From Mariprofundaceae bacterium (GTDB lineage Bacteria > Pseudomonadota > Zetaproteobacteria > Mariprofundales > Mariprofundaceae): a stretch of DNA of 37,346 nt. The notes beneath the pieces are model-generated. The model saw only the letters and a list, made by a program, of their open reading frames with translations, was not told the origin of the DNA and did no database searches. Below, one piece after another: positions 10,849 through 30,268 of this stretch. The stretch spans positions 1 to 37,346 of the forward strand of contig JAUZQO010000011.1 of the NCBI GenBank assembly GCA_030950925.1, read 5' to 3'. Every line of letters begins with the position of its first letter. Position 1 is the stretch's first letter. A program made the position numbers and the translations under genes.

Positions 10849-12114
10849 ATGTCCGATGTACAGATAGAACGTAATATTAGTCGACTCACAGCCAATACAG
10901 TCGCCTTGGTTCTGGCAGGTGGTAAAGGTTCAAGATTGAAAGCATTGACAGAATGGCGAGCCAAACCAGCAGTGCCATTTGGTGGAAAATTTCGCATCAT
11001 TGATTTTCCATTGTCCAATTGTATCAACTCGGGTATTCGCAAAATTTCAGTGGTAACGCAATATAAATCACATTCCTTACAACGTCATTTGCAACGCGGC
11101 TGGGGATTTTTATCAGGTCAATTTGGTGAATTTGTGGAAGTTCTTCCTGCGCAACAACGGACAGGGGATGGCTGGTATGCAGGTACAGCCGACGCAGTTT
11201 TTCAAAACCTCGACATTATTCGTCATTATAATCCTGAATATATTTTGGTCTTGGCTGGTGACCATGTTTATAAAATGGATTATGGAAAAATGATTGCAGC
11301 CCATGTTGCCAAAGGTGCAGACATCACTGTCGGTTGTATTCCTGTTCCCTTAGACGAAGCCACGGCTTTTGGTGTCATGGCGATTGATGATGAAGAGCGC
11401 ATTGTGGAGTTCGCTGAAAAACCTGAAAACCCCAAGACGATGCCCAATGATGAGACCCAAGCCTTGGCTTCCATGGGTATTTATGTTTTTTCTACAAAAT
11501 ATTTACGTGATCGTTTGGTGGTGGATGCGGAAGACCCCAAATCGACCCATGATTTTGGACATGATTTGATTCCCCATGCGATTGAACATGCCAATGCCTT
11601 TGCCTTCCCATTTTTAGATGGCAATACCAGTGCTTCAGGTTATTGGCGCGATGTCGGCACCATTGATGCCTACTGGGAAGCCAATATCAACTTGGCAAGT
11701 TTAGAACCAGAACTGAATATGTATGATAAAAATTGGCCTATTTGGACAGAACAAGAACAATTGGCACCAGCCAAATTTGCTTTTGATGAAGATGACCGTC
11801 GTGGTATGGCAGTTGATTCATTGATTTCAGGCGGTTGCTTGATTACAGGCTCAACCGTGCGTGGTTCAATTCTATTTTCCAATGTTCGTGTCCACTCTTA
11901 TTCGATCATTGAAGAGAGTGTCATCTTACCTGATGTTGAGATTCGCCGTGATTGCCGTATCAAAAAGTGCGTCATTGATAAAGGTACGGTGATTCCTGAA
12001 GGTACAGTGATTGGTGAAAACCATGAAGATGATGCCAAACGCTTTGAAATTTCCGAAGGTGGCGTAGTTTTGGTCACCCCTGAAATGATGGGGCAAGCTT
12101 TACATAGCGTTTAA
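10849..12114 (+). CDS. glgC: Glucose-1-phosphate adenylyltransferase (ADP-glucose pyrophosphorylase)
   Basis: 421 residues, normal for bacterial GlgC. It makes ADP-glucose from glucose-1-phosphate and ATP, the committed step of glycogen synthesis. Visible are the nucleotide loop [11 protein letters not shown] with [18 protein letters not shown], the catalytic region [13 protein letters not shown], the sugar-phosphate site [23 protein letters not shown], and a C-terminal left-handed beta-helix. The ATG has AGGGAGGAA upstream. It is followed by its own terminator and then by GH57 and malQ. The allosteric N-terminal Arg/Lys residues (ALTEWRAKP) are present, so effector control is plausible. Confidence 0.96.
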
Positions 12115-12137: not shown

Positions 12138-12172
12138 CAAAGCCCTTGGTTCAATACCGAGGGCTTTTTTTT
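12138..12172 (+). terminator. Rho-independent terminator after glgC
   Basis: AAAGCCCTTGG (12139-12149) pairs with the CCGAGGGCTTT side (12157-12167, one G-T pair), with a short TTCAATA loop, followed by a T-run to 12172. It separates glgC from the GH57 gene, which therefore needs its own promoter or readthrough. Confidence 0.88.
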
Positions 12173-12234
12173 AATGTTTTATTCACTGAATGTTACGCAT
12201 TTGTTTAAAATATATGATTAGCCTCAACAACGTC

Positions 12235-12300
12235 CCCTCGAATGCTTGTGTCGAGGGTCTGTGGATAAGCTAGGAGATTCCAGACACAAGCACTCTGGAA
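12235..12300. repeat. Pair of palindromic repeats with a constant loop (copies 1 and 2)
   Basis: Copy 1: CCCTCGA (12235-12241), loop ATGCTTGTG, TCGAGGG (12251-12257). Copy 2, on the opposite strand: TTCCAGA (12278-12284), loop CACAAGCAC, TCTGGAA (12294-12300). The copy 2 loop is the reverse complement of GTGCTTGTG, so the two loops can pair (GCTTGTGT with ACACAAGC). Stems differ while loops match. A third copy is at 28711. No T-run follows. Together with the upstream terminator this fills most of the glgC-GH57 gap. Confidence 0.8.
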
Positions 12301-12400
12301 TGACGTGGCTGGGAAGCTTTGGAATGATGCTATTTTTTTGATAAGGCGCGTAACATCCGTTAATATTTTATTTATTTTTTAAAAAATCGAGGTCACACCC

Positions 12401-14095
12401 ATGAGTCAAAAACTTTCTATTGTATTTTATTGGCATATGCACCAGCCTTTTTATCGCGCCGCAGATACAGGAAAATATCACCTTCCGTGGGTCTATCTGC
12501 ATGCCATGAAAGATTATACGGATATGGCAGATATTCTTGAGCACCTTCCTGAAGCGCGTGCTGTCATCAATTATGTTCCGTCGTTGACTGTTCAAATTGA
12601 AGATTATGCCACACAACTTAGAGCCTTTTTGAATGGCGAAAATAAAACCATTCAAGATCCCCTACTGGCTTCATTGATTCATAAAAATGGTGATTATACT
12701 GCCAAAGAACAACGGTTTCTTTTAAACAGTTGTTTTCGCCTGAATCATGAACGTAATTTACATCGTTACCCACATTTTTCTCGTTTATGGAATATTTCCG
12801 AACAAATGCAATCTCATCAAGCCACCGCTTATTTGGGAGGTGACTATTTCACTGATTTGGTAACATGGTATCATTTGGCATGGTTGGCCGAAACGGTACG
12901 AAAGAAAAACTACGTCGCTCAGCGTTTGATTGAAAAAGGCTGCCATTTTAGTTATCAAGATCGTCGTGATTTACTCACACTGATTGCTTCTTTGCTTGAT
13001 GAGTTACCCAAAACTCATCAACGCCTTCTTGCCGAAGGTAAAATTGAACTGACCACCACACCCTATGCCCATCCAATTATGCCGTTGATGTTGGATTTTG
13101 AAACCGCCCACGAAACCATTCCTCATGCCTTGATTCCTAAAGAATCCTATCCTGATGGTCGCGCACGCGCCCAAGAACATATTGATTTGGCATTGAAATC
13201 CCATCAAGCTTATTTCCATGAAACGCCCAAAGGTTGCTGGCCTTCGGAGGGTGCAGTATCGACCGAAACATTGAAATTATTGGGTCAATCAGGCTTTGAT
13301 TGGTGTGCTACAGGTGAATCCGTTTTACACCATTCTTTGGGGTATAACTTGCGTGAACAACACCCTTATAAATTGTATCAACCTTGGTTGGTCGGCGAAG
13401 GTGATGAACAAATCACCTGTTTTTTCCGTGATGACCATCTTTCCGATTTGATTGGTTTTGAATATTCCAAATGGCAAACCCATGATGCTGTGAATAATTT
13501 TATGTATGAATTGGCTGGCATCAAACACCGCACGCAGAATATTGAACATGCGATTGTGCCTATCATCATGGATGGTGAAAATGCTTGGGAACATTTCCAC
13601 GAGAATGGCGTGCCTTTTTTAACTCAGTTGTATCAAGCCATTATCAATCACCCCGATTATGATTTGACCACATTCAGTGATTATTTATCAGAACACCCCG
13701 CGCAAACAGCCTTGAAAAAAATGGTCGCAGGATCTTGGGTCTATGGCAACCTTTCCACATGGATTGGCGATGCAGCCAAAACACGCGCTTGGGAATTGTT
13801 GATTGAAGCTAAAAAAACATTGGATCTTCATATTCAAGATTTGGATGACGATGCGGTAGAAGAAGCGCGTGAACAACTGCGTATTTGCGAAGGTTCTGAT
13901 TGGTGCTGGTGGTTTGGTGATTACAATCCATCCGATGCTGTCCGTGATTTTGATAAACTATACCGCCAACATTTGAAAAAACTTTATCAACTCTTGGGTG
14001 CTGATGTTCCAGCCAGCTTGAGCCAATCCATTTCACACGGTGGTGGTGATGCTGAAGGCGGCGGTGCGATGCGGCGCGGTGGTGCAGGAGCATAA
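12401..14095 (+). CDS. Glycoside hydrolase family 57 amylase-type enzyme
   Basis: 564 residues. The N-terminus has the GH57 mark FYWHMHQPFYR, followed by LTTTPYAHPIMPLM, the presumed nucleophile region GCWPSEGAVS, and the presumed acid region IIMDGENAWEHF. These favour the alpha-amylase/4-alpha-glucanotransferase side of GH57. The branching-enzyme form of the fourth region is not seen. It should cleave or rearrange alpha-1,4-glucans such as glycogen in the cytoplasm; no signal peptide is present. GAGGT lies before the ATG. The last about 20 residues are a Gly/Ala-rich tail (HGGGDAEGGGAMRRGGAGA) outside the catalytic fold. malQ follows 2 bases after the stop. Confidence 0.88.
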   Translation: MSQKLSIVFYWHMHQPFYRAADTGKYHLPWVYLHAMKDYTDMADILEHLPEARAVINYVPSLTVQIEDYATQLRAFLNGENKTIQDPLLASLIHKNGDYTAKEQRFLLNSCFRLNHERNLHRYPHFSRLWNISEQMQSHQATAYLGGDYFTDLVTWYHLAWLAETVRKKNYVAQRLIEKGCHFSYQDRRDLLTLIASLLDELPKTHQRLLAEGKIELTTTPYAHPIMPLMLDFETAHETIPHALIPKESYPDGRARAQEHIDLALKSHQAYFHETPKGCWPSEGAVSTETLKLLGQSGFDWCATGESVLHHSLGYNLREQHPYKLYQPWLVGEGDEQITCFFRDDHLSDLIGFEYSKWQTHDAVNNFMYELAGIKHRTQNIEHAIVPIIMDGENAWEHFHENGVPFLTQLYQAIINHPDYDLTTFSDYLSEHPAQTALKKMVAGSWVYGNLSTWIGDAAKTRAWELLIEAKKTLDLHIQDLDDDAVEEAREQLRICEGSDWCWWFGDYNPSDAVRDFDKLYRQHLKKLYQLLGADVPASLSQSISHGGGDAEGGGAMRRGGAGA

Positions 14096-28677: not shown

Positions 28678-30144
28678 TCAATCATGCATTGATTGAGCGT
28701 TATTATCATCGTCACCCTCGCGTGCTTGTGTCGAGGGTGACGGAGTGTGTAACATCAGTGAATCATTCAACTGGTTACAACAATCTAGGGCAGCAATTTT
28801 GTAACATTCTGCCAAGGTTGGATAATTGAATACATGCATTGCCAACGCATCCACCGTACCATCAAGGTTCATCACCATTTGTCCAATATGAACCAATTCA
28901 CTTGCCAGTTCTCCAACAATATGAACACCCAATATCTTTTTACTTTCTTTCTCCACCAAGAGCTTTAACAAACCATTGGCATCACCAATAATTTGCCCAC
29001 GTGCTGTTTCTCGATAAAGACCATGTCCAACCACATAATTCACTTGCGCCGCATCCAGTTCAGCGGTTGTTTTCCCCACCCATGCCACTTCGGGAATAGT
29101 GTACACTGCCATGGGCAAATGATTGGTTGTGATATTGGCTTTGGCATCACAGGCATGCATGGCCGCGATACGACCTTGTTCCATACCTGTCGCAGCCAAT
29201 GCTGGTGAACCGACCAAATCACCGACCGCATAAATATGTGAAAGATTGGTTTGAAAATGTTCATTCACGCGAACCCATCCACGAGCTTGCATATCAATAC
29301 CCAGAATTTCCAACTTCAAACCTTCGGTATTGGGTACTCGTCCCAAAGCATAGAGCAAACAATCACTTTCCAAGGTTTGATCGTTGAGTTCAACAGCAAC
29401 CTTGTCATCCAAACGTGTAATTTTGCCAATATTTTGTTCCATCAACATTTTAATACCCATATTCCTCATGCAATGACTGAGGTTTTCAGAAATATCTTCA
29501 CATAAAAAACCAAGTACTTTAACATGTGAATCCACAATTGTGACTTCCACGCCCAGCGAGGCATAAATGGTAGCAAATTCACAGGCAATCACACCACCGC
29601 CCAAAATCGTCAATGTTTGGGGCAAGCGTTCCATGTGCAGTATGGATGTGGAGTCCAATACACGTTTCTTATCAAAAGGTACATCCTCTGGGCGACGCGG
29701 ACGTGAACCCGTGGCTAAAATCATATGGTCTGCATGAAGCGATACGGTTTGACCGTTTGGACTCAACACTTGCAAGGTATGTTCATCCAAAAAACTGGCC
29801 TCGCCTGGAATTAAAGTCACACCATTGCGCATCAACTGGTTGAGAAATACAGACTCTTGTTTGTCGATAATAATATCTTTCTTGCGAATAGATTCACTTA
29901 GAAAATTGTGTTGTCGGGTAATGTCTGGATAGCTATTCCGCATGCCATGACTCGCACCAATGGTACAAGAATATGCAATTTCACGCAGAGATTTACTTGG
30001 AATCGTACCTGTTTGCAGCCCCGCCCCACCAATATGCGGTTTGCGCTCGATCAAACCGACTGTTTTCCCATGTTTGGCAGCCTGAATCGCCGCTCGTTGC
30101 CCAGCAGGTCCTGATCCCACCACCAATAAATCATAATGACGCAT
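28678..30144 (-). CDS. sthA: Soluble pyridine nucleotide transhydrogenase with added C-terminal tail
   Basis: 488 residues from ATG 30144 (TAGGAG upstream). It is an FAD enzyme that exchanges reducing equivalents between NADPH and NAD+. Marks are DLLVVGSGPAGQRAA, GAGLQTGTIPSKSLRE (the redox cysteine pair of lipoamide dehydrogenases is absent, as in SthA), GGGVIACEFATIYA, YALGRVPNTEGL, IYAVGDLVGSPALA and the dimer domain ending YPTLAECYKIAALD. E. coli SthA has 466 residues. The last about 20 here (PSPSTQAREGDDDNN and on) are encoded by a palindromic repeat and the sequence after it, so the original stop was probably lost. Confidence 0.92.
   Translation of the reverse strand: MRHYDLLVVGSGPAGQRAAIQAAKHGKTVGLIERKPHIGGAGLQTGTIPSKSLREIAYSCTIGASHGMRNSYPDITRQHNFLSESIRKKDIIIDKQESVFLNQLMRNGVTLIPGEASFLDEHTLQVLSPNGQTVSLHADHMILATGSRPRRPEDVPFDKKRVLDSTSILHMERLPQTLTILGGGVIACEFATIYASLGVEVTIVDSHVKVLGFLCEDISENLSHCMRNMGIKMLMEQNIGKITRLDDKVAVELNDQTLESDCLLYALGRVPNTEGLKLEILGIDMQARGWVRVNEHFQTNLSHIYAVGDLVGSPALAATGMEQGRIAAMHACDAKANITTNHLPMAVYTIPEVAWVGKTTAELDAAQVNYVVGHGLYRETARGQIIGDANGLLKLLVEKESKKILGVHIVGELASELVHIGQMVMNLDGTVDALAMHVFNYPTLAECYKIAALDCCNQLNDSLMLHTPSPSTQAREGDDDNNAQSMHD
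28711..28741. repeat. Palindromic repeat with constant loop (copy 3), inside sthA
   Basis: GTCACCCTCG (28711-28720), loop CGTGCTTGTGT, CGAGGGTGAC (28732-28741): a perfect 10-bp stem. The loop core TGCTTGTG and the inner stem CCCTCG match copy 1 at 12235-12257. It sits at the 3' end of sthA and supplies about ten codons. It may also act as the transcript-end structure between the converging sthA and redoxin genes. Confidence 0.8.
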
Positions 30145-30268
30145 GAAAACTCCTATTTTGGCATAATTCTCTCTTGTTATCGTGTGGAATGAAGGCTGTA
30201 AGGTCAAACAAGTACAAGGAACAAGCAAGAGAGGATGTAAAAGAGTGGTTCCCCTTTCAAAGCATAGA

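Follow-up and report, generated by a model that had tools for sequence, protein, structure and literature searches.

The window, the whole 37,346-nt stretch analysed, is contig C3 of a draft genome of 1.97 Mb that shared elements place near the Zetaproteobacteria MAG NORP31. Its glgC gene (10849-12114) is followed by the Rho-independent terminator of glgC (12139-12167, + strand), then by a pair of hairpins within a 176-bp MITE-like insert (12185-12360), and then by a gene for a glycoside hydrolase of family 57 (GH57; 12401-14095). The first hairpin, REP 1, reads CCCTCGA-ATGCTTGTG-TCGAGGG on the + strand (12235-12257; 7-bp stem, 9-nt loop), with a CGTC tag just outside its stem (12231-12234). 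A spacer of TCTGTGGATAAGCTAGGAG type (12258-12276), like those at C14:65521, C49:10349 and C55:29872, separates it from REP 2 (12277-12301; 8-bp stem, 9-nt loop), which reads ATTCCAGA-CACAAGCAC-TCTGGAAT on the + strand and ATTCCAGA-GTGCTTGTG-TCTGGAAT on the - strand, and whose - strand CGTC tag appears as GACG on the + strand (12302-12305). The tags face outward, making this a head-to-head pair, and the initial annotation rightly described two different stems that share a loop, inverted in one relative to the other (12231-12305). The complementarity between the loops, which it put at 8 bases, is slightly longer, at 10 bases including flanking stem bases (TGCTTGTGTC, 12243-12252, with GACACAAGCA, 12283-12292), and sits in a 13-nt inverted repeat (92%). 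The insert is bounded by outer ends (TIR2) ACTGAATGTTACGC on the left (12185-12198, + strand), an end whose consensus, ACTGATGTTACGC, is shared by at least 8 units, and GCGTAACATCCGT on the right (12348-12360, - strand). Rfam gave no match in the window at gathering score. A role for the hairpin pair as an intrinsic terminator was considered and rejected, as only 12139-12167, upstream of both hairpins, combines a GC hairpin with a T run.

The hairpin family and its distribution

The motif RTGCTTGTG occurs 178 times in the host genome, compared with 22 occurrences of a reversed control pattern; this and the other genome counts reported here are pattern-based and come from draft genomes, and the patterns fix part of the stem in advance. 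Of 165 non-redundant matches, 85 have stems in which 7 or all 8 of the positions pair, against a mean of 27 and a maximum of 41 when the 3' arms were re-dealt, so that a genome-wide search did yield the further loop copies with compensating stems that the initial annotation had predicted. Both sides change at five of the eight stem pairs among 24 distinct hairpins, and the covariation score of these hairpins is 0.462, compared with 0.221 when shuffled (0 of 500) and at most 0.22 when slid. This dispersed family with compensated stems, and the separate terminator at 12139-12167, are in agreement with the proposal that the pair is unlike an ordinary terminator or a simple duplication. The companion proposal, that stems vary with compensation while the loop is kept, held for the stems and only in part for the loop. 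A loop-free search returned 203 hairpins in the genome (101 and 102 on the two strands; none in the reversed control), with loops including RTGCTTGTG, RTGCTTGTA, AATCTTTTA, AATCTTGTA, ATGCGTGTG and more. As this search yields a range of loops, the loop is less special than at first sight, and its apparent conservation is partly a matter of ascertainment, the searches having begun from the loop.

Just outside the stem, the 85 family hairpins carry the tag CGTC in 73 cases, TGTC in 8 and CCTC in one, and both window hairpins are tagged; the GTAG tag of RAYT-associated REPs and REPINs is not found on the family hairpins. The outermost stem pair is A-T in 21 of the 24 distinct hairpins and the second is C-G or T-A, and an AT rule for the first and second pairs is followed wholly only by ATTCC/ATCC stems. 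Loop length is 9 nt nearly throughout the family. Among the matches listed for the host genome and its congener G005 there are 65 head-to-head pairs, which are mostly heterodimers.

CGTC-tagged hairpins number 203 in the host genome, 255 in G005, 67 in G010 and 0-17 in other members of the genus; outside the genus, five were found in one genome of another genus (G011) and none in the rest of the 41 genomes. Only a few species within the genus show the expansion. In a wider scan of contigs, the same type of hairpin was found mostly in the Zetaproteobacteria NORP31, the Thiotrichaceae NORP24 and a small number of other MAGs, the remaining matches being mostly chance occurrences without stems. 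A kindred hairpin, TTCCCGA-ATGCTTGTG-TCGGGAA, is present in SZUA-229 and NORP24 MAGs (Gammaproteobacteria, Thiotrichaceae; L033, L052, L054, L070 and L075), and as such the loop type extends beyond the Zetaproteobacteria.

Association with transposon ends

The REP pairs are often the whole core of units of 129-139 bp with ends TATAGTSNTTYAAGTAT. Counts of the TATAGT end motif are 106 in the host genome, 110 in G005 and 0-7 in the other genomes searched; 11 sites carry one and the same 129-bp sequence, and a REP pair lies inside 37 of the 42 listed TATAGT units, a few long listed units being nested or spanning neighbours. Flanks joined with a single TA match intact sequences elsewhere (62 of 62 nt twice, 98% once), which demonstrates insertion at TA with duplication. 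Bounded by terminal inverted repeats and devoid of coding capacity, with TA duplication and empty sites, these units have the properties of MITEs, and the REP pair would spread as the core of such TATAGT-ended MITEs inserting at TA. Across 12 genomes (the genus and G011), the number of REPs tracks that of TATAGT terminal inverted repeats, with a rho of 0.74 that is not corrected for kinship. A resident IS630-type element with TATAGT ends (C29:1284-2231, L302) has its transposase in two frames, an HTH part of 115 aa and a DDE part of 168 aa; this split may reflect programmed frameshifting or decay, and the transposase is possibly inactive. IS630 elements here and in relatives have TATAGTGATTCAAG-type ends, such as TATAGTGATTCAAGAATAG and TATAGTAGTTTAAGAATTG, and it is most likely, judging from the sequences, that an IS630-type transposase moves the TATAGT units. 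REPs lacking TATAGT ends occur in G001 (17 REPs, no terminal inverted repeat) and G002, and the MITE would therefore explain the expansion of the REPs and not their origin, appearing to be neither their sole nor their original carrier.

The ends of the window copy are of ACTGATGTTACGC type, not TATAGT. Eight distinct units have such ends, seven of them with a CGTC hairpin match, and exact 5-bp direct repeats border four of the eight (chance 0.3% each); no target duplication was seen at the borders of the window insert. The window copy lies within another MITE-like element, this one older and bounded by ends of that type. The glgC-GH57 site has no insert in G007, G005 and more distant members of the genus, and among the other genus members read only G010 has one, with the same ends and an unrelated interior. 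This G010 site (L276, G010:C138, 1254-1448) contains an interior palindrome, GAAGTGCGGCTTTAGCCGC / GGCTAAAGCCACACTTCC. The window element is an insertion specific to its lineage, placed downstream of the glgC terminator and with a changing interior. A conserved regulator of glgC and the GH57 gene was also considered, and is ruled out by the empty sites in close relatives.

A second, single CGTC REP hairpin lies elsewhere in the window (28706-28741), followed by GTGTAACATCAGT (to 28760), which resembles the right end of a ACTGATGTTACGC-type element. An ORF on the - strand (28678-30228), for a pyridine nucleotide-disulphide oxidoreductase, reads through the stretch 28706-28760, which supplies its C-terminal tail ...TPSPSTQAREGDDDNNAQSMHD; an insertion here seems to have rewritten the end of that protein.

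Alternative explanations

The initial annotation envisaged selection on a functional RNA in which two hairpins kiss through their loops. The perfect 10-base loop complementarity of the window copy would suit such an RNA, as would the covarying stems and the commonest type of MITE, which pairs ATGCTTGTG with GTGCTTGTG and supplies 16 of the 65 dimers. Partner loops, however, match no better than re-paired loops, with a mean of 6.05 of 9 positions against 6.12 in the 65 head-to-head pairs listed for the host genome and G005 (P=0.79), and 5.53 against 5.76 of 9 in 40 distinct pairs (P=0.97); the many pairs that join RTGCTTGTR to AATCTTTTA-type loops match mostly at 3-7 of 9 bases. The lowest-energy fold predicted for the window RNA is also a single long hairpin, at -33.1 and -32.0 kcal/mol on the two strands, compared with -19.6 kcal/mol for the two-hairpin form, a figure that leaves out the loop-loop (kissing pseudoknot) energy. 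The 85-nt RNA has a folding z of -3.4, one of 200 shuffles being as good, and for DNA of the same strand the minimum is two hairpins and the centroid is the long form. As a single strand, the pair can fold into two hairpins or into a long one whose 'loops' pair with each other, the long hairpin being the form predicted to be stabler for RNA. Given also that the glgC-GH57 site is empty in close relatives, a kissing RNA with loop sequence under selection is extremely unlikely, and selection of the loops to kiss is not supported by these data. The complementarity of the loops follows from the two REPs belonging, in inverted orientation, to a single family. For the compensated stems, the likelier cause would be descent from few stem types together with template switching in replication, which can restore palindromes according to a published account (PMC8794818), and selection at the RNA level is not required.

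The initial annotation also looked to a RAYT, the HUH tyrosine transposase that moves REP/REPIN systems, and the paired-palindrome anatomy is indeed as in REPINs and BIMEs. The host genome has one RAYT-like gene with the HxH motif PNHIHGI (C54 1993-2559, L347), to which a gene of G005 (C34 1563-2099, L348) is 78% identical. The host gene nevertheless scores 63 against the NCBIfam cut-off of 80 bits and has no flanking REP, one side having none in 1.9 kb and the other being cut off by the contig end; the REP pair closest to the RAYT-like gene of G005 is beyond the pseudopilin gene that adjoins it. The tags are CGTC, not GTAG, the number of RAYT-like genes shows no relation to that of REPs (rho 0.31, P 0.33, in the genus and G011 and not corrected for kinship), and the other Y1 matches in the host genome resemble pieces of IS200/IS605 TnpA. 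The association with a RAYT was thus not borne out, and we consider it very unlikely that these REPs form a system moved by one; a RAYT acting in trans on CGTC REPs is likewise unlikely. A separate question is whether the REPs serve MITEs chiefly as favoured landing sites instead of being moved as cargo. TATAGT MITEs have inserted repeatedly at the spacer TA of other REP pairs in the host genome, giving nested copies (L010, L024, L100 and L147), as a landing site would predict, but the 129-bp unit moves whole with its REP pair and is identical at 11 sites, and this explanation too is unlikely. The roles of cargo and landing site are compatible, since MITEs that carry pairs can also insert into pairs.

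In both the host genome and G005, the RAYT-like HUH gene adjoins type II secretion pseudopilin-like genes.

Discussion

The two hairpins downstream of glgC are very probably a head-to-head heterodimer of CGTC-tagged REPs, spread as the core of small non-autonomous elements. CGTC-tagged REPs are a known REP superfamily (Di Nocera et al. 2013, PMC3733652) with no known transposase. The explanation that the initial annotation had set against its own, a known family without constraint on the loop, largely applies in the form of these REPs, and the dispersed family with compensated stems that it foresaw was itself borne out.

The link of REP pairs to MITE ends is the less expected result, and the most interesting part of this analysis lies, rather than in the loops, in the association of these pairs with transposon ends of two kinds. 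We tentatively suggest, as a possibility that falls somewhat short of probable, that CGTC REPs in head-to-head pairs travel as a self-contained passenger, which in a single genus has come to form the core between two or more unrelated types of transposon ends: TATAGT, with duplication of TA, and ACTGATGTTACGC, with duplication of 5 bp. The pairs would then spread by means of borrowed transposases with none of their own. If so, the heterodimer form would persist because it offers a strong hairpin without a long perfect palindrome. Carriage by MITEs is a plausible route by which CGTC REPs could move. How CGTC REPs multiply is a stated open question, and it can now be addressed by a simple transposition assay, since pairs are carried whole inside elements whose ends, target duplications and exact empty sites are identified, and a candidate for the transposase is present. 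Our data also emphasize the need for caution with loop complementarity and compensated stems, which are usually taken as signs of selection on RNA and which here would come from inverted arrangement and repeat descent.

The MITEs have TATAGT-type ends in common with IS630/Tc1-mariner insertion sequences and show TA duplication; unlike those insertion sequences, they have no transposase gene, and the likeness of the ends extends over only about the first 14-17 bases. The Correia elements of Neisseria (CREE/NEMIS) are, like the units described here, small, non-autonomous elements of high copy number with TATAGT ends and insertion at TA, and differ in that the present units have a CGTC REP pair as their core and in the ends beyond TATAGT. 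The GTAG-15 dimers of Anabaena variabilis, which lie in TATAGGA...TCCTATA palindromes, are likewise REP dimers inside terminal inverted repeats starting with TATA; they belong to the GTAG superfamily and not to CGTC, and the available text of their description names no transposase or target duplication (PMC3733652). In the open-access literature we found no account of the present repeats in Zetaproteobacteria. With the CGTC REPs described in the same paper (PMC3733652), the repeats share a CGTC/TGTC tag outside an 8-bp stem that starts with A-T, variable compensated stems, an unpaired tail of short length, an arrangement as head-to-head heterodimers around a structured spacer that is conserved, and a high copy number at intergenic and at times intragenic sites. 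The four families published there have loops of 4-5 nt, in contrast to the 9-nt RTGCTTGTG-type loops found here, and the paper mentions other loop lengths in some species; the tail here is CTA instead of CCA, the host belongs to the Zetaproteobacteria, and many pairs lie inside MITE ends. Because the 9-nt loop and CTA tail match none of the four published families, these repeats are a further family of the CGTC superfamily.
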